This document shows positions 16,925 through 35,645 of a DNA stretch of 36,750 nucleotides, one piece after another. The stretch is from Peptococcaceae bacterium CEB3 (GTDB lineage: Bacteria; Bacillota; Desulfitobacteriia; Desulfitobacteriales; Desulfitobacteriaceae). The notes beneath the pieces are model-generated. The model was not told where the DNA came from. It searched no databases and saw nothing but the letters and a program-made list of their open reading frames with translations. The translations under genes and the position numbers were made by a program. Numbering within the stretch: the first letter of the stretch is position 1; every line of letters starts with the position of its first letter. The DNA lies in assembly GCA_001029295.1 (NCBI GenBank), contig LDXJ01000029.1, forward strand, positions 1-36,750, read 5' to 3'.

Positions 16925-18433
16925 ATGCCGATGTATGCGGTGGACTGGCTGCTCCGGCGTGCCGAACTTTCGCCCGAACGCCTGGTCGTCATTGACACGG
17001 TCAGCGGGGAGCGTCTGACATATTCGGCGTTAAACGAGCAGAGTGAGAAGCTGGCGGCATTCCTTTATCACGAGGCAGGGTTGCGGGAGGGGGAGCGCTT
17101 GGCGATCCTGGCTCCGAATCGTCCGGAGCACCTACTCGCTTTGTTTGCCGCGCAGAAGTTGGGGGCGGTCCTTGTGCCCGTAAACTTCCGTCTCAGCCGG
17201 GGCGAATTGGAGTACATTCTGCGGGATAGTGCCCCTCGCGTTCTCCTCTACGATCCGGGTCTGAAGGAGGCGGCAGCCATCCGGGCCGCGGCGGAGATAG
17301 AACGTTTTATTGCCCTGGCCGCGGAGAAGACGGAAGATTCCCTGTTTTCACAAATCATGAACGAACCGTTCGCCGGGGATTTTCCGCGCCCCTGGCGTTC
17401 GCTCGAAGTCCCCTGGCTGCTTCTCTATACCGGGGGTACGACCGGTTTCCCCAAGGGGGCTCTTCTCTCCCAGCGCATGATTACCTGGAATGCCGTGAAT
17501 ACGGCGATCAGCTGGGAACTTAATTCCTCGGATATTGCTCCTATTTTCACCCCCTTTTTCCATACCGGCGGCCTCAATGTCCTGACAACCCCTTTAATCC
17601 ATTTGGGCGGAACCCTCCTCTTGCCGGGAGCCTTTCAAGCGGCCGGAGCCATCAAACTGATCAACGAGGAAAAGGCGACGATCGTGTTCATGGTTCCGAC
17701 CATGTTTCAGATGATGGCGGCCGAAGAGGACTTTGCCGGCACGGACTGGTCTTCCGTACGTTTCTGTATTTCCGGCGGGGCGCCGTGCCCGCCAGCTGTC
17801 TACGAAACGTACTGGCGCAAAGGACTTACCTTTAAGCAGGGATATGGCTTGACGGAAGTGGGGCCCAACTGCTTCGCCCTAAATTCGGCCGATATGCGCC
17901 GCAAAATGGGTTCTGTCGGCAAACCAGTTTTCCACAGTGCGGTAAAAATCATCTCCGCGGACGGCCCGGAAGCGGGGGTGAATGAAGTGGGCGAACTGCT
18001 GATCAAAGGGAACCATACTTGCCTGGGCTATTGGCACAATGCGGCGGCGACGGAGGCATCCTTTGAGGACGGATGGTTTCGCACCGGAGACTTGGCCTGC
18101 CGGGACGAGGAAGGCTACTATTTCATCGTGGACCGCAAGAAAGATCTGATTATCAGCGGGGGTGAGAACATTTACCCCGTCGAGGTGGAAACAGTGCTTT
18201 ACAGCCATCCGGATATCCAAGAAGCAGCTGTCGTCGGCCTGGCTCATGAAAAATGGGGGGAAGTGCCGAAGGCTTTCCTCGTGCTTAGACCCGGAGCCAA
18301 CCTGACGGCCGAGGAGGTGATGGCCTACTGCCGCACGCGCCTGGCGGGGTACAAGGTGCCCAAAGAAGTGGAATTCCGCCCTTATCTGCCGCATAGTGCG
18401 GCCGGAAAAATTCTGAAACGGGAACTAAAGTAA
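16925..18433 (+). CDS. Acyl-CoA ligase (AMP-forming)
   Basis: This 502-residue class I adenylate-forming enzyme activates a carboxylic acid to its CoA thioester through an acyl-AMP. Motifs seen are the phosphate loop YTGGTTGFPKGA, GYGLTEVGPN, the adenine-binding DGWFRTGDLA, the hinge DRKKDLIISGGENIYPVEVE, and the C-terminal catalytic Lys in AAGKILKREL. Length and motif order are those of medium/long-chain or aromatic acyl-CoA ligases. The start ATG follows GAGAGGGGAGG, one base after the TetR stop. In context it would activate an acid imported by the downstream ABC transporter or released by one of the hydrolases. Confidence 0.94.
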   Translation: MPMYAVDWLLRRAELSPERLVVIDTVSGERLTYSALNEQSEKLAAFLYHEAGLREGERLAILAPNRPEHLLALFAAQKLGAVLVPVNFRLSRGELEYILRDSAPRVLLYDPGLKEAAAIRAAAEIERFIALAAEKTEDSLFSQIMNEPFAGDFPRPWRSLEVPWLLLYTGGTTGFPKGALLSQRMITWNAVNTAISWELNSSDIAPIFTPFFHTGGLNVLTTPLIHLGGTLLLPGAFQAAGAIKLINEEKATIVFMVPTMFQMMAAEEDFAGTDWSSVRFCISGGAPCPPAVYETYWRKGLTFKQGYGLTEVGPNCFALNSADMRRKMGSVGKPVFHSAVKIISADGPEAGVNEVGELLIKGNHTCLGYWHNAAATEASFEDGWFRTGDLACRDEEGYYFIVDRKKDLIISGGENIYPVEVETVLYSHPDIQEAAVVGLAHEKWGEVPKAFLVLRPGANLTAEEVMAYCRTRLAGYKVPKEVEFRPYLPHSAAGKILKRELK

Positions 18434-18487
18434 AAGAAAAAGGAGAAAAGGGAAGAGAACGTGGGACGTGTTTTGTTTCAGTGGGGA

Positions 18488-18727
18488 GTCTCGGCACGTA
18501 TGAGCAATCTTGGGTAGGTCTCGGCACGTATGAGCAATCTTGGGTAGGTCTCGGCACGTATGAGCAATCTTGGGTAGGTCCCGGCACGAATGAGCAGTCT
18601 TGGGTAAGTCTCGGTACGTATGAGCAAGGATCTGTAAGTGTAGGTACGCACGAGTAAGTATTGGTGAGAATCTCAGTGAGTAGCGATGAAGCGGTGAGTA
18701 TCAGCGGGTATCGACAAGTATCAGTGT
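18488..18727. repeat. 30-bp tandem repeat array, three perfect then decaying copies
   Basis: Units of 30 bases begin at 18488, 18518 and 18548 and are identical (GTCTCGGCACGTATGAGCAA plus ten bases). Unit 18578 differs at 4 positions and unit 18608 at more. Units 18638, 18668 and 18698 keep only the GT.../GTA rhythm. The array fills most of the 355-base gap between ligase and transporter genes. There are no spacers, so it is not CRISPR. It ends 60 bases before the lipoprotein gene. Function unknown. Confidence 0.9.
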
Positions 18728-25016: not shown

Positions 25017-25023
25017 GTATGAT
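24994..25023 (+). promoter_or_regulatory. Candidate promoter for the ammonium-sensing operon
   Basis: TTGAAG at 24994-24999 and TATGAT at 25018-25023 are 18 bases apart, matching sigma-A consensus at four and five positions. It lies about 70 bases before the ATG of the Amt-kinase gene, inside the small tandem repeat. Confidence 0.45.
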
Positions 25024-25093
25024 AGGGGCAATGTCAGCCGTTCCGCGGAAGTGCGCCGGCTCGGCAAGGCAAAACGAGGAGCATGAGCGGTTC

Positions 25094-27031
25094 ATGGAAG
25101 TCAATCTCAATCATCTCTGGCTGATCGTCAGCGCCTGCTTCGTTTTTTTTATGCAGGCGGGTTTCGTCTGCTATGAGGTCGGATTCATCCAATCCAAAAA
25201 CGTCGTCAGTGTGGCCATTGAAAATATCCTGACCTTTATCATCACCACTTTGGTTTTCTCCTTCTTGGGTTTTGCGCTCATGTTCGGCCCCGGCCCTTGG
25301 GGTCTCTTCGGCGGGCATTACTGGTTATTGAATAACCTGGCCCAGGCTCATAATTCCCTGGGCTTTGTCTTTGTCTTCTTTGAGCTGATGTTTGCGGGTA
25401 CGGCGGTGACCATTGTCTCGGGCAGCATGTCTGAGAGAACCCGCCTCCTGCCTTTACTGCTGGCGGCGGTTTTCCTGGCGGGGTTTATCTATCCTCTCTT
25501 CGGACATTGGGTCTGGGGGGACCTTTTTCAAAATCAATCCGCCTGGTTAAAAAACCTTGGGTTTATGGATTTCGCCGGAGCGACGGTGGTCCACGCGACC
25601 GCGGGCTGGGTCTCTCTGGCTGGGATCATCGTGGTCGGACCACGCAAAGATAAATGGGATGAAGAAGGAAAGATCAAGAAACTGGGCCGATCCAATATTC
25701 CTTTTGCGGCCTTGGGCACGTTTATTCTCTGGTTCAGCTGGTTCGGTTTCAACGGGGGCAGTCTGCTTGAATTCAATGATCGGATCGGGCTGATTCTCTT
25801 AAATACAAACTTCTCGGCGGCGGCCGGCGTGGTCGGCGCCATTTTGACGACGCGCTTCTTTATCCGGGACCACAGCTATATGGAGGCGATTTTTGCCGGT
25901 GCCCTGGGCGGTCTGGTCGCCATCACCGCCAGCTCAAACTACCTGGAGCCGTTAGCTGCGGTCATGGTGGGTTTCATCTCCGGTTCCGTCGTCGTTCTGG
26001 CCGGGTTGCTGCTGGAAAAATTAGGCCTGGATGATGCTGTGGGCGCGGTGCCGATCCACGGTTTCGGCGGGGCGGCTGGCACGATCTTATTGGCCTTTTT
26101 CGCCTCTCCGCAATTTCTGGGCGGGCAGTCGCGCTGGGTAAAGTTTCTCGTACAATTGCTGGGCGTGACGGTAAACTTCGTTTGGTCCTTCGGCTTAGGC
26201 CTCCTCATGTTTTACCTGATTAAGAAAAAGTTTGGCCTGCGAGTGACGGAGGAAGAAGAGGAGAAGGGGCTGAACATCGTCGAGTTTGGCGACATCTACT
26301 CCTGGCAGGAATATTTGAAAATCACGCACTACGAGAATTTGACCCAGGACCTGAGCGGCAAGATTCAACAGCAAAACCAGCTGTTGCAGAAACAGGCTAA
26401 GCTTTTAGCGGAAACCCAGGAGCATGAACGGGTGAAATTAGCCCGGGACCTGCATGACGGTGTCGGCCAGTCCCTGGCGGCGCTCAAGTTGCAATTAGGC
26501 CTGATTGCCAACAAGGTCAGAACGGAAGAAAAGGATCCCGCGTTGAGTGAACAGGTCGAACGGACCGTCCGCCTGACCACGGAAACCATTGAGGAGATCC
26601 GGGGGGTTCTCTTTAATTTGAAACCGGGCATTCTGCAAAAAAGAGGGTTAAAATCAGCGATCGAAGAGCTTTTGAAGACTTTGGGCAAGACGAGCGGGAT
26701 AAGGTATGAGTTCAGCCTGTCGGCGGACCTGCCCCCCTGGGAAGACACCGCGCAGCTCAATCTTTACCGGGTCATCCAGGAATGTCTGGCAAACATTTTG
26801 AAACATGCCGAGGCAACGGAAGTCATGCTTCACTTTTCCCGGCTTAGGAGCGATCTTTACCTCTTTCAAATCAGCGACAACGGGCGCGGTTTCAATCCGG
26901 ATGAGATTCACACCGGTTTGGGCCTCAGCTCTATGCAGGAGAGGCTGAAGATGTTGGGAGGGAGATTGCAAATTATCACGGCAGAAAGCCGAGGGACGAG
27001 TATCCTGATGGAGGTACCTTATGACGGTTAA
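25094..27031 (+). CDS. Ammonium transporter domain fused to histidine kinase (ammonium sensor)
   Basis: This 645-residue protein has residues 1 to about 385 as an Amt/MEP/Rh channel with eleven likely membrane segments. Pore residues are retained: FELMF for the outer Phe gate, HWVWG, Asp159 and His167 (MDFAGATVVH), SWFGFNGGS, and His322 (VPIHGFGG). These equal E. coli AmtB Asp160, His168 and His318. A coiled linker (about 415-445) leads to a HisKA_3 dimerisation domain with phospho-acceptor His454 (ARDLHDGVGQS) and a NarX-type ATPase domain (ECLANILKHAEA, then DNGRGF and GLGLSSMQERL). Start ATG 25094 is preceded by GAGGAG at 13 bases; upstream ATGs at 25019 and 25031 have no ribosome site. 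It overlaps the regulator gene by 11 bases. Amt-kinase fusions are known, for example from anammox bacteria. Confidence 0.93.
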   Translation: MEVNLNHLWLIVSACFVFFMQAGFVCYEVGFIQSKNVVSVAIENILTFIITTLVFSFLGFALMFGPGPWGLFGGHYWLLNNLAQAHNSLGFVFVFFELMFAGTAVTIVSGSMSERTRLLPLLLAAVFLAGFIYPLFGHWVWGDLFQNQSAWLKNLGFMDFAGATVVHATAGWVSLAGIIVVGPRKDKWDEEGKIKKLGRSNIPFAALGTFILWFSWFGFNGGSLLEFNDRIGLILLNTNFSAAAGVVGAILTTRFFIRDHSYMEAIFAGALGGLVAITASSNYLEPLAAVMVGFISGSVVVLAGLLLEKLGLDDAVGAVPIHGFGGAAGTILLAFFASPQFLGGQSRWVKFLVQLLGVTVNFVWSFGLGLLMFYLIKKKFGLRVTEEEEEKGLNIVEFGDIYSWQEYLKITHYENLTQDLSGKIQQQNQLLQKQAKLLAETQEHERVKLARDLHDGVGQSLAALKLQLGLIANKVRTEEKDPALSEQVERTVRLTTETIEEIRGVLFNLKPGILQKRGLKSAIEELLKTLGKTSGIRYEFSLSADLPPWEDTAQLNLYRVIQECLANILKHAEATEVMLHFSRLRSDLYLFQISDNGRGFNPDEIHTGLGLSSMQERLKMLGGRLQIITAESRGTSILMEVPYDG

Positions 27032-27665
27032 GGTTTTTTTGGCAGATGACCATAAAATACTGCGGGAATCCCTGGTAATTTTGCTTCAGCAAGAAAGGGA
27101 CCTGGAGGTCGTCGGCGAGGCGGCGGACGGTCAGGAGGCGATCCGGGAAATTCTGCGTTTGCAGCCGGACATAGCGATTCTCGATATTTCTCTGCCCAGG
27201 CTCAATGGTTTGGATGTGGCGGCACGACTGAAACGTGAGCGGCCGGAGACCAAGATTATCATTTTGACCATGCACAAGAATGAGGAGTTTGTCGCCCGTG
27301 CTTACCAACTGGAAGTCAACGGCTATGTGCTGAAAGAAAATGCCCTGGAGGAACTTCTTGACTCTATCCGGACTGTTCAGGCCGGGGGAATTTATATTTC
27401 GTCGGATATTACGTCGACGATCGTCGCCGGCTTCGTGGAAAACTTCAGCCAGAAAAAGAGCAAACCCGAGCTGATTTCCGCCAGGGAGAGGGAAGTCGTG
27501 CAGCTCTTAGCTGAAGGAAACAGCAACAAAGAGATCGCCCGCATCCTGAATTTGAGCTTGAAGACCGTGGAAACTCACCGGGCTAACATCATGCGCAAAC
27601 TCGGGTTTAAGAGCATTACGGATTTGGTCCTCTATGCCGTACGCAATCACATGATTGAGCCGTGA
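27021..27665 (+). CDS. NarL/LuxR-family response regulator
   Basis: This 214-residue regulator has a receiver domain with acidic residues ADDH at the N terminus, phospho-acceptor Asp55 (IAILDISLPRLNG) and the conserved Lys in YVLKENALEE. A C-terminal LuxR helix-turn-helix follows (SAREREVVQLLAEGNSNKEI, then LSLKTVETHRANIMRKL). The ATG overlaps the Amt-kinase gene by 11 bases, so it is that kinase's partner. The Amt gene 206 bases downstream is the obvious candidate target, but no repeated operator is recognisable in that gap by eye. Confidence 0.94.
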   Translation: MTVKVFLADDHKILRESLVILLQQERDLEVVGEAADGQEAIREILRLQPDIAILDISLPRLNGLDVAARLKRERPETKIIILTMHKNEEFVARAYQLEVNGYVLKENALEELLDSIRTVQAGGIYISSDITSTIVAGFVENFSQKKSKPELISAREREVVQLLAEGNSNKEIARILNLSLKTVETHRANIMRKLGFKSITDLVLYAVRNHMIEP

Positions 27666-27871
27666 AAATACGGGTAAGGAAAAAACAGGCAGCGCTCGGC
27701 ATTGAACAGTGGGAGATTGGCAGCTAAAACCCAAAACAAAGAGTGATGGCTGCCGCGGGGAAAAATACAGAGATAATTGTATCGAAATACGGAAAAACCC
27801 TGATTAACGGAAACACTGCCCTGTCTTAAGCTATGTATGTACGCAATTATTAGACAGTGGGGGGTTTCGTT

Positions 27872-30235: not shown

Positions 30236-30372
30236 AGCGGTTTTGTAACAAGCACGCATAGGCGCGGACTAATGTGGAAATAGCTATTTTTGAATAACAT
30301 GGCTGAACAACGTGTCTATAAGGGGGACTGGCTCTTGTTCAAACAGGTAACCCTGCTAAAGATCATTTTCCA

Positions 30373-30417
30373 TTTGTAATGCATGTTACAAATTAGCTCG
30401 CGAATATGCGCTATAGT
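30373..30417 (+). promoter_or_regulatory. CRP-family operator and class II promoter of the regulator gene
   Basis: TTTGTAA at 30373-30379 and TTACAAA at 30386-30392 form a perfect 7-bp-arm palindrome with 6 bases between. The -10 box TATAGT is at 30412-30417. With +1 set 7 bases after the -10, the palindrome centre is at -41.5, the class II position of CRP/FNR activators. A hairpin GGCATT-AGA-AATGCC follows directly (30421-30435). The same set occurs upstream of the arylsulfotransferase-like gene. Confidence 0.75.
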
Positions 30418-30550
30418 TAAGGCATTAGAAATGCCAATTACTGTCAAGGCTTAGCCTTTTTGGCCCTTTTTGCGATGTTTTGAACAAATTTGAGCGGTAA
30501 TTGGAAGTTCCTCAGAAGAGCTTTAGGCAATATTGAGGAGGTGTTCCGAT

Positions 30551-31273
30551 GTGTGTATTAATAAAAAGGAATTAAATGAACACATTACTACTTCAATGAT
30601 GATTGATGAGACGACCCTTGCCGCGGAAGGATTAACACCAAAGATTTGGGATAAGTATTTGACGCAAAGTTCCGGCAAAAAGCTCAAAAAAAGCGGCGAA
30701 AGCATCATTCGGATCGGGGAAAATTTAAATGGCTGTTACTTTGTAAAAAAAGGCAGGATTAAAACGGTTTTTATTGGCAAAGACGGTACGGCTAAGGTAA
30801 TCTCCATTAACGGCGAAGGGGCAATCTTTGGTGATCAGTTTGTTTTCCATAGCCAACCGGGTTTATTTGAGGGAATCGTTATATCTGACGCGGAAGTATA
30901 TTTCTTCACCAAGGAGATTATCATGGAGCTTTGTCAGAAGGATTTTGAAATCAGCCTTTTCCTTATGAAGTCCCTGGCGATTAAGTCAAGAATGTTGGCA
31001 GCCCAGCTCGAGGACGTTTCTGTTCGCAATACATTGCAGAATCTCTGCAGAATTCTCTATTGCTTGTATTGTTATGAGAAAAGTAAAGGGCAGCCCCAAG
31101 ACGCAGTTGTCATTCGTTTGACCCATGAAGAGTTGGCCAATACGCTCGGGGTTCACAGGGTAACAATTACGAAGATACTCAATAAACTCAAAGCACTTGG
31201 GGTGTTGGAATACAAGTATGAAAGGATTACGCTCATAAATTATCAAGATTTAAAAGAATATGCTTTTGAATAA
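30551..31273 (+). CDS. CRP/FNR-family transcriptional regulator (CprK-like)
   Basis: This 240-residue regulator has an N-terminal cyclic-nucleotide-binding-type beta-barrel (about 45-140: GENLNGCYFVKKGRIKTVFI and EGAIFGDQFVF), a long dimer helix, and a C-terminal winged helix (LTHEELANTLGVHRVTITKI). The layout resembles CprK/FNR-like regulators of Desulfitobacterium. No N-terminal FNR cysteine cluster is present; the single early Cys is residue 2. The effector is unknown. GTG 30551 lies 8 bases after GAGGAGG; a TTG at 30533 would precede that site. The palindrome 160 bases upstream suggests autoregulation. Confidence 0.9.
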   Translation: MCINKKELNEHITTSMMIDETTLAAEGLTPKIWDKYLTQSSGKKLKKSGESIIRIGENLNGCYFVKKGRIKTVFIGKDGTAKVISINGEGAIFGDQFVFHSQPGLFEGIVISDAEVYFFTKEIIMELCQKDFEISLFLMKSLAIKSRMLAAQLEDVSVRNTLQNLCRILYCLYCYEKSKGQPQDAVVIRLTHEELANTLGVHRVTITKILNKLKALGVLEYKYERITLINYQDLKEYAFE

Positions 31274-31319: not shown

Positions 31320-31364
31320 TTGTAAGCGTTGTTACAAAGTTTCAACCAGAACGCGGTATAAAAT
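31320..31364 (+). promoter_or_regulatory. CRP-family operator and promoter of the gcvH-like operon
   Basis: TTGTAA at 31320-31325 and TTACAA at 31332-31337 repeat the palindrome with the same 6-base spacer. TATAAA at 31357-31362 or TAAAAT at 31359-31364 is the -10, placing the centre within about 1 bp of -41.5. Confidence 0.7.
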
Positions 31365-31410: not shown

Positions 31411-31830
31411 ATGACACAAAGCAAGAAGAGGATCGAGGAAATCATATTTGAGGAGCGAATTTCCTATGATTCAAGACATGCCTGGGTAAAAATAGAAGAT
31501 CACGGAGCCATAATCGGCATTTCCGACTATGCGCAAGACCAACTGGGAGATTTGGTTTTTGTCGAGCTGCCCTCAATAGGCGATGTTTTTGGACGAGGAG
31601 AGGTATTCGGTCAGGTGGAATCGGTAAAGTCGGTGTCTTCTTTGATAATGCCCATCGGTGGAACAGTAACCGCTATAAACGAGGAGTTGGAGGATGATCC
31701 GGAATTATTGAACCGTTCGCCCTATAGTCAGGGCTGGATTATTAAGGTTGAGCCAAAAAGTTTAGAAGAACTTGAAGAACTACTCACGTCCCGACAATAT
31801 GCCGACTATTTAAAAACGACGGAGGGGTGA
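31411..31830 (+). CDS. GcvH-like lipoyl-domain protein
   Basis: This 139-residue protein has a biotinyl/lipoyl hammerhead fold like the glycine cleavage H protein. The motif VESVKSVSSLIMPIGGTV places the lipoyl-accepting lysine at residue 73, and the family's DLVFVELPSIGD and SPYSQGWIIKVEP segments are present. A 25-residue basic/acidic N-terminal extension is longer than usual. No other glycine-cleavage gene (gcvT, gcvP) is nearby, so it is probably a special-purpose lipoyl carrier, as known for LbpA in sulfur oxidation. It overlaps no gene but ends 4 bases before the next start. It is controlled by the palindrome at 31320. Confident in fold, not in role. Confidence 0.85.
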   Translation: MTQSKKRIEEIIFEERISYDSRHAWVKIEDHGAIIGISDYAQDQLGDLVFVELPSIGDVFGRGEVFGQVESVKSVSSLIMPIGGTVTAINEELEDDPELLNRSPYSQGWIIKVEPKSLEELEELLTSRQYADYLKTTEG

Positions 31831-31834
31831 CAGC

Positions 31835-32674
31835 ATGAGTCTGGTGATCTTCACGGCGACGGGTTGTACGCGCTGCAAAATTGTAAAGCATTATATGGAT
31901 CAACGGCAGATTAAGTATGTGGAAAGAGATATGAAGGCTGAAGGGAAAGAGGAATTTCAGAACTTTTATAAAATGAATCGCAGTGCGGTTTTTCGAGGTC
32001 CGGAAGGCATAGAGTTTCCGATTATTGTTGACGGGAGCAATATTCGGCAAAGCATTGGCGCAGCTATTGCCTATCTTCACGCGGGAGAAAAATTAGACGG
32101 ATTTTTCGGCGTGGGGACATTGCACCAGGAATGGGTCGATGGAATCCATTTGTCGCAAGGCGACCCAGCCTACGGGGATGAATTGATCCAAGTCTTGCAA
32201 TATCTTAAGAGCAATCAGCTGAAACTGCAAGTCGATACGGACGGTCGCAATAGTGAAATACTGGAGCGGGTCATTGATGAAGGTCTTGCCAATGTTCTGA
32301 TCATGAATGTGCTGGGGCCCCTTGAGCTATATCCTCAAATATTGGAACAGGATGTAGACGGGCAGGATATCCGCAAAAGCTTAGGTTTACTCTGTCGATG
32401 TCAGGAGGCTAGACTGCAAACGACTATTCGGGCCGTGAAACGCAAGGACGGCAGCCTGTCCTATCTAACTCCGGCTGAACTAGCCGCAACGGCAGAATTC
32501 ATTCAAACAACAACGGGAAGTAATAAATGGCGTTACCTGATTAAGCACTTACCGCCGGGAGAGAGCGCGGATAATGTACGACAGGGAATCAAAGCTCTCC
32601 AGTGGAGTGAGCTGTTCCCTTACCGCGCCAAGGCGAGAGATTACCAAGTTTATACTGAAATAGAAAGAACGTAA
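31835..32674 (+). CDS. Glutaredoxin-like domain fused to degenerate radical-SAM-like domain
   Basis: This 279-residue protein has residues 1-84 as a glutaredoxin/thioredoxin-fold domain with redox pair Cys11-x-x-Cys14 (TATGCTRCK). Residues about 90-270 resemble the later half of pyruvate-formate-lyase-activase-type radical SAM barrels: LSQGDPAYGDELIQVLQYL matches the GGEP strand and helix, LQVDTDGRNSEIL the DTNG strand, and LIMNVLGPLELY the next strand. No CxxxCxxC cluster motif is present; only an isolated CRC at about 189-191 occurs. Thus SAM radical chemistry is unlikely unless the cluster comes otherwise. ATG 31835 follows GGAGGGGTGA, coupled to the GcvH-like gene. I do not recognise the composite family. 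Confidence 0.7.
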   Translation: MSLVIFTATGCTRCKIVKHYMDQRQIKYVERDMKAEGKEEFQNFYKMNRSAVFRGPEGIEFPIIVDGSNIRQSIGAAIAYLHAGEKLDGFFGVGTLHQEWVDGIHLSQGDPAYGDELIQVLQYLKSNQLKLQVDTDGRNSEILERVIDEGLANVLIMNVLGPLELYPQILEQDVDGQDIRKSLGLLCRCQEARLQTTIRAVKRKDGSLSYLTPAELAATAEFIQTTTGSNKWRYLIKHLPPGESADNVRQGIKALQWSELFPYRAKARDYQVYTEIERT

Positions 32675-32683
32675 TTTCTTAAT

Positions 32684-32716
32684 CAATTGCCAGCTCATGA
32701 TACGAGCTGGCAATTG
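32684..32716 (+). terminator. Hairpin after the gcvH-like operon
   Basis: CAATTGCCAGCTC at 32684-32696 pairs perfectly over 13 bp with GAGCTGGCAATTG at 32704-32716, with a 7-base loop. No T-run follows, but its position 10 bases after the stop suggests a transcript end or 3' stabilising structure. Confidence 0.6.
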
Positions 32717-32784
32717 AATCTAAAAGGTAAGACATAAAATTCTACCCTGCCAAAAAATGATATGCGGTTAAGAAACTTTTCCAC

Positions 32785-32828
32785 TTGTAGTGAACGCTAC
32801 ACATTAATACTTGGGTTTGCGATATAGT
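32785..32828 (+). promoter_or_regulatory. CRP-family operator and class II promoter of the arylsulfotransferase-like gene
   Basis: TTGTAG at 32785-32790 and CTACAC at 32797-32802 form a slightly degenerate copy of the palindrome, with the same 6-base spacer. TATAGT at 32823-32828 is the -10, so the centre is again at -41.5. Surrounding bases (32777-32880) are clearly homologous to 30365-30467. Confidence 0.7.
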
Positions 32829-32834
32829 TAAGGT

Positions 32835-33074
32835 ATTAGAAATCCTAATCGTTCACATAAGGAAAACTTAGCCTTTGCTGGATCAAAACTTGTTGAAATG
32901 CGGCGAGGCAAGGTTCCGTGGAAGAAAAAGTGGGGTGAAAGTGGCGGCACACTACTGCATTCTGGGGAAACCCTGATAAATGCGTGGGCATTTATCGTAA
33001 GAACTCTTGTGAAAGGAAACATTAGAACAAGAGGGCCAAAATCTCTAGACGATGTATCAAAGGAGGATTTAAGA
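32835..33074 (+). promoter_or_regulatory. Long structured leader of the arylsulfotransferase-like gene
   Basis: About 240 bases separate the inferred transcription start from the ATG. A perfect 9-bp hairpin (GATAAATGC at 32975-32983 with GCATTTATC at 32988-32996) is present, plus GGG-AAA-CCC just upstream and a purine-rich stretch. A 59-codon open frame in phase with the gene begins at ATG 32898, but without a ribosome site. No known riboswitch class was matched by eye. Confidence 0.4.
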
Positions 33075-34565
33075 ATGGGAATTCCAACCGTATATCCATC
33101 GGGTACCACAGTCTATGACCCGAAAAAGGCCAGCAATGGCTACACGATCTTCCAAGCGCATCAACTCGGAGCCCTGCTGATTGATATGAATGGAAGGGAA
33201 GTTAAGCTATGGAAGGGACTACATGGTTTTCCTAACAAAATGCTTCCGGGTGGTTATGTCCTTGGACATCGCGGAACTCGGGATAACAAGTTTGGTTATC
33301 AGGACTATACTGACCTGGTCCAGGTGGACTGGGACGGAAATGTAGTCTGGGAATTCAATAAGTATGAGTATGTAGAAGATCCGGGCCATAAACCGCAATG
33401 GATGGCCAGGGTACACCACGACTATCAGAGGGAAGGGAACCCGGTAGGATACTATGTACCCGGGATGGCTCCCAAGGTGGATAGCGGAAACACCTTGATC
33501 ATGTGTCATAAAAATGTGGTAAATCATAAGATCTCGGATAAACCCCTGCTGGATGACGCCATTATTGAAGTGGATTGGGAAGGAAATATTGTTTGGGAAT
33601 GGCTTTTAAGCGAGCATTTTAATGGATTAGGCTTTTCGGAAGCAGAGAAAAACGTGCTCTTCCGCGACCCGAACACGCATGAGACGGGTGGGGTGAGCAT
33701 TGGAGACTGGATGCATCTGAATGCCATGTCCCCGTTGGGGCCTAACAAATGGTACGACCAAGGGGATGAGCGCTTCCATCCGGATAATATTATCTGGAGT
33801 GCCCGTGAAACCAATATCATGGCCATTATCAGCAAGGAAACCGGCAAAATTGTCTGGAGACTTGGCCCGGATTATAGTTCCAGCAAGCAATTAAAAAGGC
33901 TCGGGATTGTTATTGGGCAACATCACGTTCACATGATCCCTAGAGGCCTTCCCGGAGAAGGGAATATCCTCATCTTTGACAATGGCGGTTGGGCCGGTTA
34001 CGGGCTGCCCAGTATGGTGAGCCCTTATGGAGTAAAAGCTTATCGCCGGGATTATTCGCGGGTACTGGAAATCGATCCGGTCACATTAAAAATCATATGG
34101 CAGTATACGCCGACTGAAGCCGGTCGTTTACAACCCTTCCACTCCCATTATTTTTACAGTCCTTTCATCAGCAGCGCCCAAAGAATGCCGAATGGGAACA
34201 CTGTGATTACGGAAGGATCCGGAGGGAGAATTTTTGAGGTCACCCAAGAGCATGAATTGGTTTGGGAATATATCTCTCCCTATTGGGATAAGAAGCACAC
34301 GCTTAATATGGTTTATCGCGCCTATCGGCTGCCGTATGACTGGGTTCCGCAATTAGAGAAACCCAAAGAAGTTCCCATTGAACAGCTCGATGTGACCCAA
34401 TTCAGACTGCCGGGGGCAGCGCCAATGGGTTGCGGCAACGTCGTCGAAGTGGCAGGAACTTTGGGTTACAGTGAGGGCGGCGGTTTCTGTGTTGCGGCTG
34501 AAGGAGAGACGCCGGTAGATAAAGATGACGAAAATGATCAATACAGCGGTATAGTTCGCCTCTAA
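33075..34565 (+). CDS. Arylsulfotransferase (ASST)-family beta-propeller protein
   Basis: This 496-residue protein resembles the arylsulfotransferase family, enzymes that move sulfate from aryl sulfates to phenols without PAPS. Repeated blade-like units of the type V(D/E)WDGNVVWEFN, VDWEGNIVWEWL and ISKETGKIVWRLG end in the xxGxxVWx pattern. Candidate active-site regions are GDWMHLNAMS, GQHHVHMI (His283, His284, His286), NILIFDNGG and FHSHYFYSP. Characterised bacterial ASSTs are periplasmic with signal peptides, but none is visible here, so it may be cytoplasmic. ATG 33075 follows AAAGGAGG by 8 bases, rejecting the longer in-frame start at 32898. Reaction and substrate are uncertain. Confidence 0.82.
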   Translation: MGIPTVYPSGTTVYDPKKASNGYTIFQAHQLGALLIDMNGREVKLWKGLHGFPNKMLPGGYVLGHRGTRDNKFGYQDYTDLVQVDWDGNVVWEFNKYEYVEDPGHKPQWMARVHHDYQREGNPVGYYVPGMAPKVDSGNTLIMCHKNVVNHKISDKPLLDDAIIEVDWEGNIVWEWLLSEHFNGLGFSEAEKNVLFRDPNTHETGGVSIGDWMHLNAMSPLGPNKWYDQGDERFHPDNIIWSARETNIMAIISKETGKIVWRLGPDYSSSKQLKRLGIVIGQHHVHMIPRGLPGEGNILIFDNGGWAGYGLPSMVSPYGVKAYRRDYSRVLEIDPVTLKIIWQYTPTEAGRLQPFHSHYFYSPFISSAQRMPNGNTVITEGSGGRIFEVTQEHELVWEYISPYWDKKHTLNMVYRAYRLPYDWVPQLEKPKEVPIEQLDVTQFRLPGAAPMGCGNVVEVAGTLGYSEGGGFCVAAEGETPVDKDDENDQYSGIVRL

Positions 34566-34676: not shown

Positions 34677-35645
34677 ATGATAAGAGGATTTCAGAAGATA
34701 CCATTAGCTATTTCTGGATTAATGTTAGGATTGGCATCTGGAGGAAATTTAGTAGGAGTTTACGGGGGGATATATAAATGGTTATTTGGGTCAATCTCGG
34801 CCTTAATTGGAATTTTATTAATCCTGAAATTTATAAATTTCAAGGATTTTATAAGAGAAGTTAAAAACCCTTTAGGGGTAGGTACTATTGCAACTTTCCC
34901 CATGGCACTGATGGTTTTAGCAACTTACGTACCTTTGCGTTTTCATACAGTTGGATATGGAATTTGGTTAATAGGGTTGCTAATACATTGTTTAATAATT
35001 GCTTCTTTTTCAACGAAATTCATCGTTTCAAGTTTCACTGTAAAGAATTTTTTCCCGAACACCTTTGTTGTTTACGTTGGGGTAGGTGTGGCAAGTATTA
35101 CTGCTCCGAATTTTGGCCTAGAAGGTATTGGGCAGGTTGTTTTTTGGTTTAGCACAGTCTGTTATTTGTTGTTATTGCCAATAATCATATATAGAGTGAC
35201 CATTATAAAAGAAATTTCAGAACCGGTAAAGCCGACTATGACTATTTTTATAGCTCCGGGGTTCCTGTGTTTGGCGGGATATCTTAGCGCATTCAAGGTA
35301 GCCGATATTAATATTATACTAACAGCTCTTCTTTTTACTATGTCACTAATAACCTTTTCCGTCTTTATTTTGATATATTTCTTTAGAGTGATTAAATTGA
35401 GGTTTTACCCAAGTCATGCCGCGTTAACATTTCCCTTTGTAATCAGTGCAATCGCCACAAATAAGGCAGTAACTTATTTCACCGGGATGAGCATTAAAAC
35501 GGTTCCGCTGCTGAGATATTTTACTGACGCAATAAGGATATTAGCAATTTTGGTTGTAATTGGTGTTTTACTGGGATATCTATTTAGTTTATTACGATAC
35601 CTGCAAAGAATCAATTATGGTAACACCCGTAAATGGGCCAACTAA
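34677..35645 (+). CDS. TDT/SLAC1-family permease (TehA/Ssu1-like)
   Basis: This 322-residue protein has about ten membrane segments. The N terminus KIPLAISGLMLGLASGGNL is the hallmark of the tellurite-resistance/dicarboxylate transporter (TDT) family, which includes TehA, malate permeases, plant SLAC1 anion channels and the Ssu1 sulfite exporters. Next to a sulfotransferase-family gene, export of sulfite or a sulfonated or organic anion is a reasonable guess, but not shown by sequence. The DNA is strikingly AT-rich (13 G+C in the 60 bases at 34801-34860) compared with the left of the window. ATG 34677 lies about 8 bases after AGGGGATGG. No CRP-type palindrome was seen before it. Confidence 0.8.
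   Translation: MIRGFQKIPLAISGLMLGLASGGNLVGVYGGIYKWLFGSISALIGILLILKFINFKDFIREVKNPLGVGTIATFPMALMVLATYVPLRFHTVGYGIWLIGLLIHCLIIASFSTKFIVSSFTVKNFFPNTFVVYVGVGVASITAPNFGLEGIGQVVFWFSTVCYLLLLPIIIYRVTIIKEISEPVKPTMTIFIAPGFLCLAGYLSAFKVADINIILTALLFTMSLITFSVFILIYFFRVIKLRFYPSHAALTFPFVISAIATNKAVTYFTGMSIKTVPLLRYFTDAIRILAILVVIGVLLGYLFSLLRYLQRINYGNTRKWAN

Follow-up and report, generated by a model that had tools for sequence, protein, structure and literature searches.

What does a glutaredoxin domain do when it is joined to a radical SAM barrel lacking the cluster cysteines, in a protein encoded between a GcvH-like lipoyl protein and an arylsulfotransferase-like enzyme? The question is raised by a 36,750-nt stretch of the Peptococcaceae bacterium CEB3 genome (contig LDXJ01000029.1), analyzed at its full length and termed the window below. 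The gene under study (termed the Grx-barrel gene) and its surroundings are as follows.

30374 to 30391, no strand: perfect inverted repeat TTGTAA-N6-TTACAA, upstream of the regulator gene
30533 to 31273, plus strand: CRP/FNR-family regulator (cNMP_binding and HTH_Crp_2 domains)
31320 to 31337, no strand: second copy of TTGTAA-N6-TTACAA, 73 nt before the GcvH-like gene
31411 to 31830, plus strand: GcvH-like lipoyl protein (TIGR00527), with the lipoyl lysine K73 conserved
31835 to 32674, plus strand: Grx-barrel gene, a glutaredoxin domain followed by the post-cluster part of an activase-type radical SAM barrel, without cluster cysteines
32683 to 32717, plus strand: perfect 14-nt inverted repeat directly past the Grx-barrel gene
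32770 to 32849, plus strand: 80-nt element with a degenerate operator and TATAGTTAAGGTATTAGAAATCCTAAT, 74% identical to 30359-30438
33075 to 34565, plus strand: arylsulfotransferase-like enzyme (PF05935, 9.3e-24)
34677 to 35645, plus strand: SLAC1/TDT-family anion channel or exporter (PF03595, 1.2e-15)

The coordinates and frame of the Grx-barrel gene proved correct: it starts with ATG, encodes 279 aa, and begins 4 nt after the stop codon of the GcvH-like gene. The Grx domain covers residues 1 to 84. Pfam entry PF00462 matched residues 4 to 38 with 22.3 bits, marginally below the cut-off of 22.9, NCBIfam entry NF041212 (glutaredoxin-like) matched at an E value of 1.3e-5, below the family cut-off, and a nine-row profile of the Grx-barrel family matched a PDB glutaredoxin at 0.0014. 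C11 and C14, together with E60-F61-P62, were invariant in 19/19 members, and P62 falls at the position expected for the cis-proline of a glutaredoxin active site. The barrel part covers residues 96 to 270. Positions 60 to 154 (of 193) of the NrdG2 activase model TIGR02495 aligned with residues 98 to 190 at an E value of 2.2e-11, below the cut-off. We then compared a profile of the 19 full-length members (A5; window included, the damaged loci L035 and L076 left out) with a profile of 13 CxxxCxxC-bearing activases from the phylum of the window (A6), and HHalign paired Grx-barrel residues 96 to 270 with activase residues 61 to 223 of 231 (99.6%, E value of 1.2e-24, 162 columns). This match begins past the activase cluster loop, so the part of the activase that bears CxxxCxxC is the part replaced by glutaredoxin. 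In other words, the protein resembles NrdG2-type activases (TIGR02495, PF04055) in the barrel that follows the cluster loop, and differs from them in having a glutaredoxin for the loop and the first part of the barrel, and in the loss of E75, K125, E159, and R161. The same architecture recurred in the 19 full-length loci, with 48 to 69% identity to the window protein, so that neither a frameshift nor an assembly artefact accounts for it. An N-terminal CxxC redox domain and the second half of an activase-type barrel without CxxxCxxC were what the sequence-only reading had described, and both domains, the latter by sequence profile, and the missing motif were borne out.

The loss of radical SAM residues went well beyond the cluster motif. 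CxxxCxxC was present in 0/19 full-length members, where C11 and C14 were the only invariant cysteines. Among the positions invariant in 13/13 activases, several were kept (G74, T100, G102, and M122 in 19/19 members, P127 in 18/19, D118 and T162 in 17/19), charged positions were gone (E75, K125, and E159 in 0/19, R161 and R62 in 1/19) or mostly gone (K97 and D123 in 3/19), and D99 was D in 12 members and E in 7. The position of the GGE-type SAM-binding glutamate (activase E75) held D, N, or S instead. Judged by these residues, the Grx-barrel protein reads as a retired pseudo-radical-SAM barrel and not as an enzyme of the radical SAM class; its homology to the superfamily is that seen by sequence profile. 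AlphaFold models of the whole protein and of residues 85 to 279, each based on an alignment of three sequences, were of low confidence (mean pLDDT of 52.0 and 54.6). In the fold comparison that the sequence-only reading had proposed as a check, these low-confidence models matched mixed TIM barrels in the PDB, radical SAM enzymes such as viperin included, and Foldseek also returned Grx/Spx matches amid many others.

We searched for the family in the class (82 genomes) and in 398 genomes drawn evenly from the phylum. In the class, full-length genes were found in G000, G009, G016 (two copies), G017, G018, G027, and G028 and a fragment in G015. In the phylum draw, 11/398 genomes carried the gene: G000, G113, G228 (two copies), G230, G278, G302, G333 (damaged), G374, G378 (two copies), G438, and G453. 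With duplicates merged (L001 is L028; L002 and L036 are L077), this made 21 loci, 19 full-length with the window included, plus the damaged L035 and L076. A genome scan with the single protein as query gave 2 loci. The weaker matches of both searches were also inspected: of 22 tried, 8 on the minus strand were left out and 14 were read as proteins, all 14 being CxxxCxxC activases (13 of them form A6). The plasmid search gave no match, and in G001, a genome of the same genus, neither a Grx-barrel gene nor a sulfotransferase was found. In L035 (9622-10191, G015), the barrel half without the Grx half lies beside tryptophan-synthesis-like genes and is probably a relic. In L076 (9324-10187, G333), the Grx-barrel is fused in frame to transporter-like sequence past residue ∼207, which looks like the result of a deletion; a search of that genome at an E value of 1e-30 gave no member of the window sulfotransferase family. 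A remnant of a second cluster occurs in L033 (5790-6219, G028), where a C-terminal piece of a sulfotransferase adjoins a Grx-domain piece with an internal stop.

We then looked into the neighborhood of the Grx-barrel gene in the 21 loci. An arylsulfotransferase-like gene lay within 6 kb in 17/21, at a distance of 36 to 91 nt in 8 of these 17 (L033, L066, L068, L069, and L071 to L074). A GcvH-like gene was found in 13/21 loci and was missing in 8/21, relatives of the CRP-type regulator were found in 13/21, dihydrolipoyl dehydrogenase (Lpd) in 8/21 (the three Lpd scanned were all above the TIGR01350 cut-off), and a DASS-type transporter in 6/21. The GcvH-like protein of the window scored 139.2 bits against TIGR00527 (cut-off of 115.85), and K73 was invariant in 7/7 GcvH-like proteins. 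No Lpd gene lies within range of the Grx-barrel gene in the window. Other neighbors relate to organosulfur compounds: L030 has an alkyl sulfatase, L034 a full AssT with PF17425, and L028 a TauE exporter; the SLAC1/TDT protein of the window is a possible transporter of sulfite or an organosulfate. In L077, a 4-hydroxyphenylacetate decarboxylase is encoded 4.5 kb from the Grx-barrel gene.

The sulfotransferase-like protein of the window scored 84.5 bits against PF05935 (cut-off of 24.2). Its true start is probably at 33075, as in its relatives, not at 32898. For the Escherichia coli enzyme (EcAST), the part of a 2026 review available to us lists His436, which forms the sulfated intermediate, and His252, His356, Asn358, Arg374, and Thr501 (PMC13426309). 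The AssT of L034 served as a bridge: the EcAST residues were located in it and then, by HHalign (95.9%, E value of 5.8e-9), in the window family. Counted from the probable start at 33075, the residues that correspond to H356, N358, R374, and H436 are H214, N216, R244, and H283, and these positions were invariant in 16/16 sulfotransferase-like proteins. H252 lies outside the aligned stretch, and its pairing with an invariant HHD was made by eye; T501 is not kept, the position found by eye being Ile in 14/16 proteins and Val in 2/16. As far as alignment can tell, the window enzyme is thus one with retained active-site residues. A search of PDB sequences with the profile of the family gave no AssT at E values up to 1, so the family is distant from AssT. 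It shares PF05935 and the four equivalent residues with the PAPS-independent aryl sulfotransferases (AssT; PDB entry 3ELQ; PF05935) and differs from them as follows: the protein has no match to the Ig-like N-domain (Pfam) and, in the alignments, begins at the first conserved residues of its family with no hydrophobic leader, and its gene has a dithiol partner adjacent. Members of the sulfotransferase family were found in 24/398 phylum genomes and 15/82 class genomes.

The regulatory sequences link these genes further. TTGTAA-N6-TTACAA is a probable CRP/FNR-type operator, and its exact form occurs at 2 places in the 5.3-Mb genome, both within the window cluster (the pattern read backwards, used as a control, occurs at 1 place). 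The 80-nt element precedes the sulfotransferase gene, and the segment that it matches, 30359-30438, stands before the regulator gene. Only 4 of the 57 stretches scanned contain the exact operator, namely the window, L030, L031, and L091; in the last three it stands before the sulfotransferase gene, and it also stands before the Lpd gene in L030 and ∼450 nt off that gene in L031. In the lineage of the window, the sulfotransferase, Lpd, and the GcvH-like/Grx unit may therefore be under one regulator. The 14-nt inverted repeat possibly marks the end of the transcription unit formed by the GcvH-like and Grx-barrel genes.

Grx-barrel genes also kept company with dissimilatory sulfite reductase (Dsr). 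DsrA (TIGR02064) was detected in 55/398 phylum genomes, each time above the family cut-off, and is encoded by an open frame in the genome of the window. It was present in 11/11 Grx-barrel carriers (one with a damaged copy) versus 44/387 noncarriers, with a hypergeometric probability, in which shared ancestry is not fully allowed for, of 1.4e-10 by genome and 6e-7 by family. The family-level figure rests on hand counts of 7 carrier families and 21 DsrA families and on a total of ∼140, the highest family code seen. Among the sulfotransferase-bearing phylum genomes, DsrA was found in 17/24 and was missing in 7/24.

Sulfotransferase genes without a Grx-barrel gene within 6 kb were examined for other thiol partners. 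There were 37 such genes, with two stretches that are repeated in other loci counted once, the two-piece gene of L115 counted as one, and the fragments G230:C202, G065:C44, and G065:C28 left out. A thioredoxin, searched with a model built from L031, L080, L081, L085, and L094, all among the loci surveyed, was encoded within 6 kb or fused in 10/37 cases, several contigs ending within that distance. A thioredoxin-reductase-like gene was present in 10/37, either of the two in 11/37, and neither in 26/37. For comparison, 6 thioredoxin matches were counted across the 5.3 Mb of the window genome, which gives an expectation of ∼1.5% per 13.5-kb stretch. Thioredoxin was also found in 2 of the 17 loci where the sulfotransferase is partnered by a Grx-barrel (L031 and L034). 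Three genomes (G017, G018, and G028) have a second sulfotransferase flanked by thioredoxin and its reductase, and G317 encodes a fusion of the sulfotransferase-like enzyme with a thioredoxin domain (PF00085, 5.8e-21), 15 nt downstream of a thioredoxin-reductase-like gene. In a tree of 52 sulfotransferase rows (rows of up to 440 aa were left out), the three partner labels required 10 changes versus a mean of 22.1 upon shuffling (0/200 as low), and the Grx-barrel label required 4. The two main Grx-barrel clades included five rows without an adjacent Grx-barrel gene (L090 to L094), and the genomes concerned carry one elsewhere.

Two minor observations concern these loci. The G317 fusion (L080, 10606-12420) is a good candidate for an assay of thiol-dependent sulfite release with a single protein. 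In f53 genomes, large proteins resembling type I phosphodiesterases/nucleotide pyrophosphatases are encoded near the sulfotransferase (L082, 1367-3400; L083, 17539-19581; L087, 6745-8808), by PF01663 for L082 and by resemblance for L083 and L087; possibly they act as sulfatases or esterases in the sulfotransferase pathway.

From these genomes, we infer a function whose every chemical step, reductive direction, substrate, and scaffold role are part of the same proposal: the Grx-barrel protein would be a dithiol reductant dedicated to the cytoplasmic arylsulfotransferase-like enzyme, with which it would convert a sulfate ester into sulfite without ATP. We give this reading an even chance. In its favor are the neighborhood counts, the co-occurrence with DsrA, the retained sulfotransferase residues, the thioredoxin-linked relatives, the organosulfur neighbors, and the operator. 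Against it count the 26/37 sulfotransferase genes near neither thioredoxin nor its reductase, the two Grx-barrel loci with an additional thioredoxin, the 7/24 sulfotransferase-bearing genomes lacking DsrA, the missing Lpd in the window and the missing GcvH-like gene in 8/21 loci, the absence of both genes from G001, the failure of the sulfotransferase profile to reach AssT in the PDB, the loss of T501, and the rarity of the exact operator; moreover, the counts are not independent in phylogenetic terms. In a first step, the active-site histidine of the sulfotransferase would take the sulfuryl group of an organic sulfate ester and free the alcohol or phenol. The sulfuryl group would pass to the CxxC of the Grx domain as a cysteine S-sulfonate (step 2), which the second cysteine would attack, so that sulfite leaves and a disulfide stays behind (step 3). 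The dihydrolipoyl group of the GcvH-like protein would reduce this disulfide and would itself be recharged by Lpd and NADH (step 4), and the sulfite would be handed to Dsr (step 5). The dead radical SAM half-barrel would serve as a scaffold on which the partners dock. In part of the remaining sulfotransferase family, thioredoxin and thioredoxin reductase would replace steps 2 to 4, and in loci without a nearby Lpd or GcvH-like gene (Lpd in the case of the window), the task would fall to housekeeping copies. Reduction is easier for an aryl sulfate than for free sulfate, so NADH or thiols could suffice while Dsr holds sulfite low. PAPS reductase with thioredoxin offers a precedent, as there a dithiol takes the sulfuryl group and sulfite is released. 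The dithiol-sulfuryl chemistry that we propose for the Grx-barrel would be the same, but with an organic sulfate ester as the donor, no ATP spent, and an enzyme of an unrelated family. More tentatively, and at somewhat less than even odds in our estimate, the sulfotransferase and its dithiol partner together would constitute a sulfate-ester reductase, a previously undescribed route of sulfur respiration. The part of the dithiol partner would then fall either to the Grx-barrel, aided by Lpd and the lipoyl protein, or to thioredoxin and its reductase, and organic sulfates would yield sulfite without a sulfatase, ATP sulfurylase, or APS reductase.

Of the alternatives, the one that survives best, itself unlikely, is that of the sequence-only reading: a lipoyl-specific oxidoreductase in which the barrel holds the GcvH-like protein, the sulfotransferase being merely coregulated. 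The GcvH-like gene does adjoin in the window, with the gap of 4 nt, and one is present in 13/21 loci. Against this reading, six loci have a sulfotransferase and no GcvH-like gene (L029, L034, L071, L073, L074, and L075), which makes the lipoyl protein the less constant partner. The converse arrangement, a GcvH-like gene with no sulfotransferase nearby, was seen in L067 and L077, and both genomes have a sulfotransferase elsewhere. Because the sulfotransferase is the more constant partner, thiol-dependent sulfuryl chemistry is a more likely function than lipoyl redox per se. Of the earlier proposal of a repurposed barrel acting with the lipoyl protein, the repurposing agrees with the lost cluster motif and charged residues and the partnership with the 13/21 loci, but this partner is not a constant one; the proposed dithiol link between CxxC and the lipoyl group is possible, and lipoyl redox alone is a less likely function. 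Glycine cleavage as the main role was considered and is not favored, as the window genome has its own GcvT-GcvH-GcvP1-GcvP2-like operon on another contig (GcvT by its translation only). The separate GcvH in that operon makes the GcvH-like copy of the window a paralogue, which may still contribute to glycine cleavage. GcvP was present in 17/17 Grx-barrel carrier genomes searched and so does not discriminate.

Next in likelihood, and improbable, is a maturation or repair factor that would keep the sulfotransferase reduced or correctly folded, much as DsbA serves periplasmic AST in the oxidizing direction, and take no part in turnover. According to the consulted part of the review cited above, AST genes are known next to dsbA (PMC13426309). 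The sulfotransferase considered here has no hydrophobic leader, so oxidative folding is not expected, and a chain of reductase and lipoyl protein would be heavy equipment for repair. Third in order, and also doubtful, is the reverse reaction, in which sulfite would be trapped on the dithiol or lipoyl group as an S-sulfonate, from which the sulfotransferase would pass it on to an alcohol or phenol while Lpd delivers the electrons to NAD+; the role would then be sulfite detoxification or sulfate-ester synthesis. Exporter-like neighbors (TauE in L028 and SLAC1 in the window) are in line with this direction, as is the fact that Lpd usually runs towards NADH. Relatives without the Grx-barrel argue against it. 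The sulfotransferase gene of G319 has thioredoxin, sulfite reductase, a PLP enzyme of Cys/Met metabolism, and an NMT1-type binding protein as neighbors, and the presence of the sulfite reductase and the Cys/Met-metabolism enzyme fits sulfite release. So does the position of the sulfotransferase beside an NMT1-type ABC uptake system in five f25 genomes, which lack DsrA and have no thioredoxin in range (the ABC system was assigned by Pfam in one genome and by similarity in the others). The carriers themselves have Dsr, a consumer of sulfite. Finally, an active radical SAM protein with its cluster on other cysteines or on a partner, to which the barrel homology might point, is very improbable, given two invariant cysteines only and the loss of the GGE glutamate (0/19), K125 (0/19), and R161 (1/19).

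How does the proposed sulfate-ester reduction compare with published systems? According to the portions of the literature at hand, lipoate-dependent sulfur oxidation (sHdr/LbpA) likewise places a lipoyl protein in dissimilatory sulfur metabolism, whereas the Grx-barrel setting is proposed to be reductive. Organosulfonate respiration by isethionate sulfite-lyase likewise produces sulfite for respiration, through a glycyl radical cleavage of the C-S bond, unlike the S-O cleavage proposed here. For sulfate reducers that use organic sulfate esters, the alternative in print is a sulfatase followed by sulfate reduction, as for the Desulfatiglans SAGs (PMC6129605); in contrast to our proposal, hydrolysis yields sulfate, which then needs activation, and that text makes no use of the word sulfotransferase. 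The physiological role of bacterial aryl sulfotransferases is described as poorly understood, with natural acceptors unidentified for most, in the pages of the 2026 review that we could draw on (PMC13426309). Among the matches listed for open-licence PMC articles, seen as titles and the starts of abstracts, none joined an arylsulfotransferase with Dsr, a lipoyl protein, or a Grx-barrel protein, none reported thiols as sulfuryl acceptors of the aryl sulfotransferase family, and none contained the sulfate-ester reductase reading; "arylsulfate sulfotransferase" and "dissimilatory sulfite reductase" together gave nothing in open-licence PMC text.

Were the acceptor a thiol, the members of this sulfotransferase branch would in effect be reductases, and sulfate reducers living on organosulfates could save the ATP that the activation of sulfate costs. 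Bacterial aryl sulfotransferases would gain a physiological role, lipoyl proteins would have a second use in dissimilatory sulfur metabolism, here a reductive one, and the Grx-barrel would be a clear case of a radical SAM barrel that has given up catalysis and now forms the body of a redox carrier.

Elsewhere in the window, two features were noted. The region 25019-27665 encodes, judging from its translation only, an ammonium-transporter-like protein of 670 aa whose C terminus resembles a NarX-type histidine kinase. Next come a NarL-type response regulator and, at 27857, a second ammonium transporter (both also from translation only). A minus-strand frame at 18285-18587, after an AMP-ligase-like gene, contains P(G/R)PTQDCSYV three times in tandem, possibly a small intergenic repeat array.
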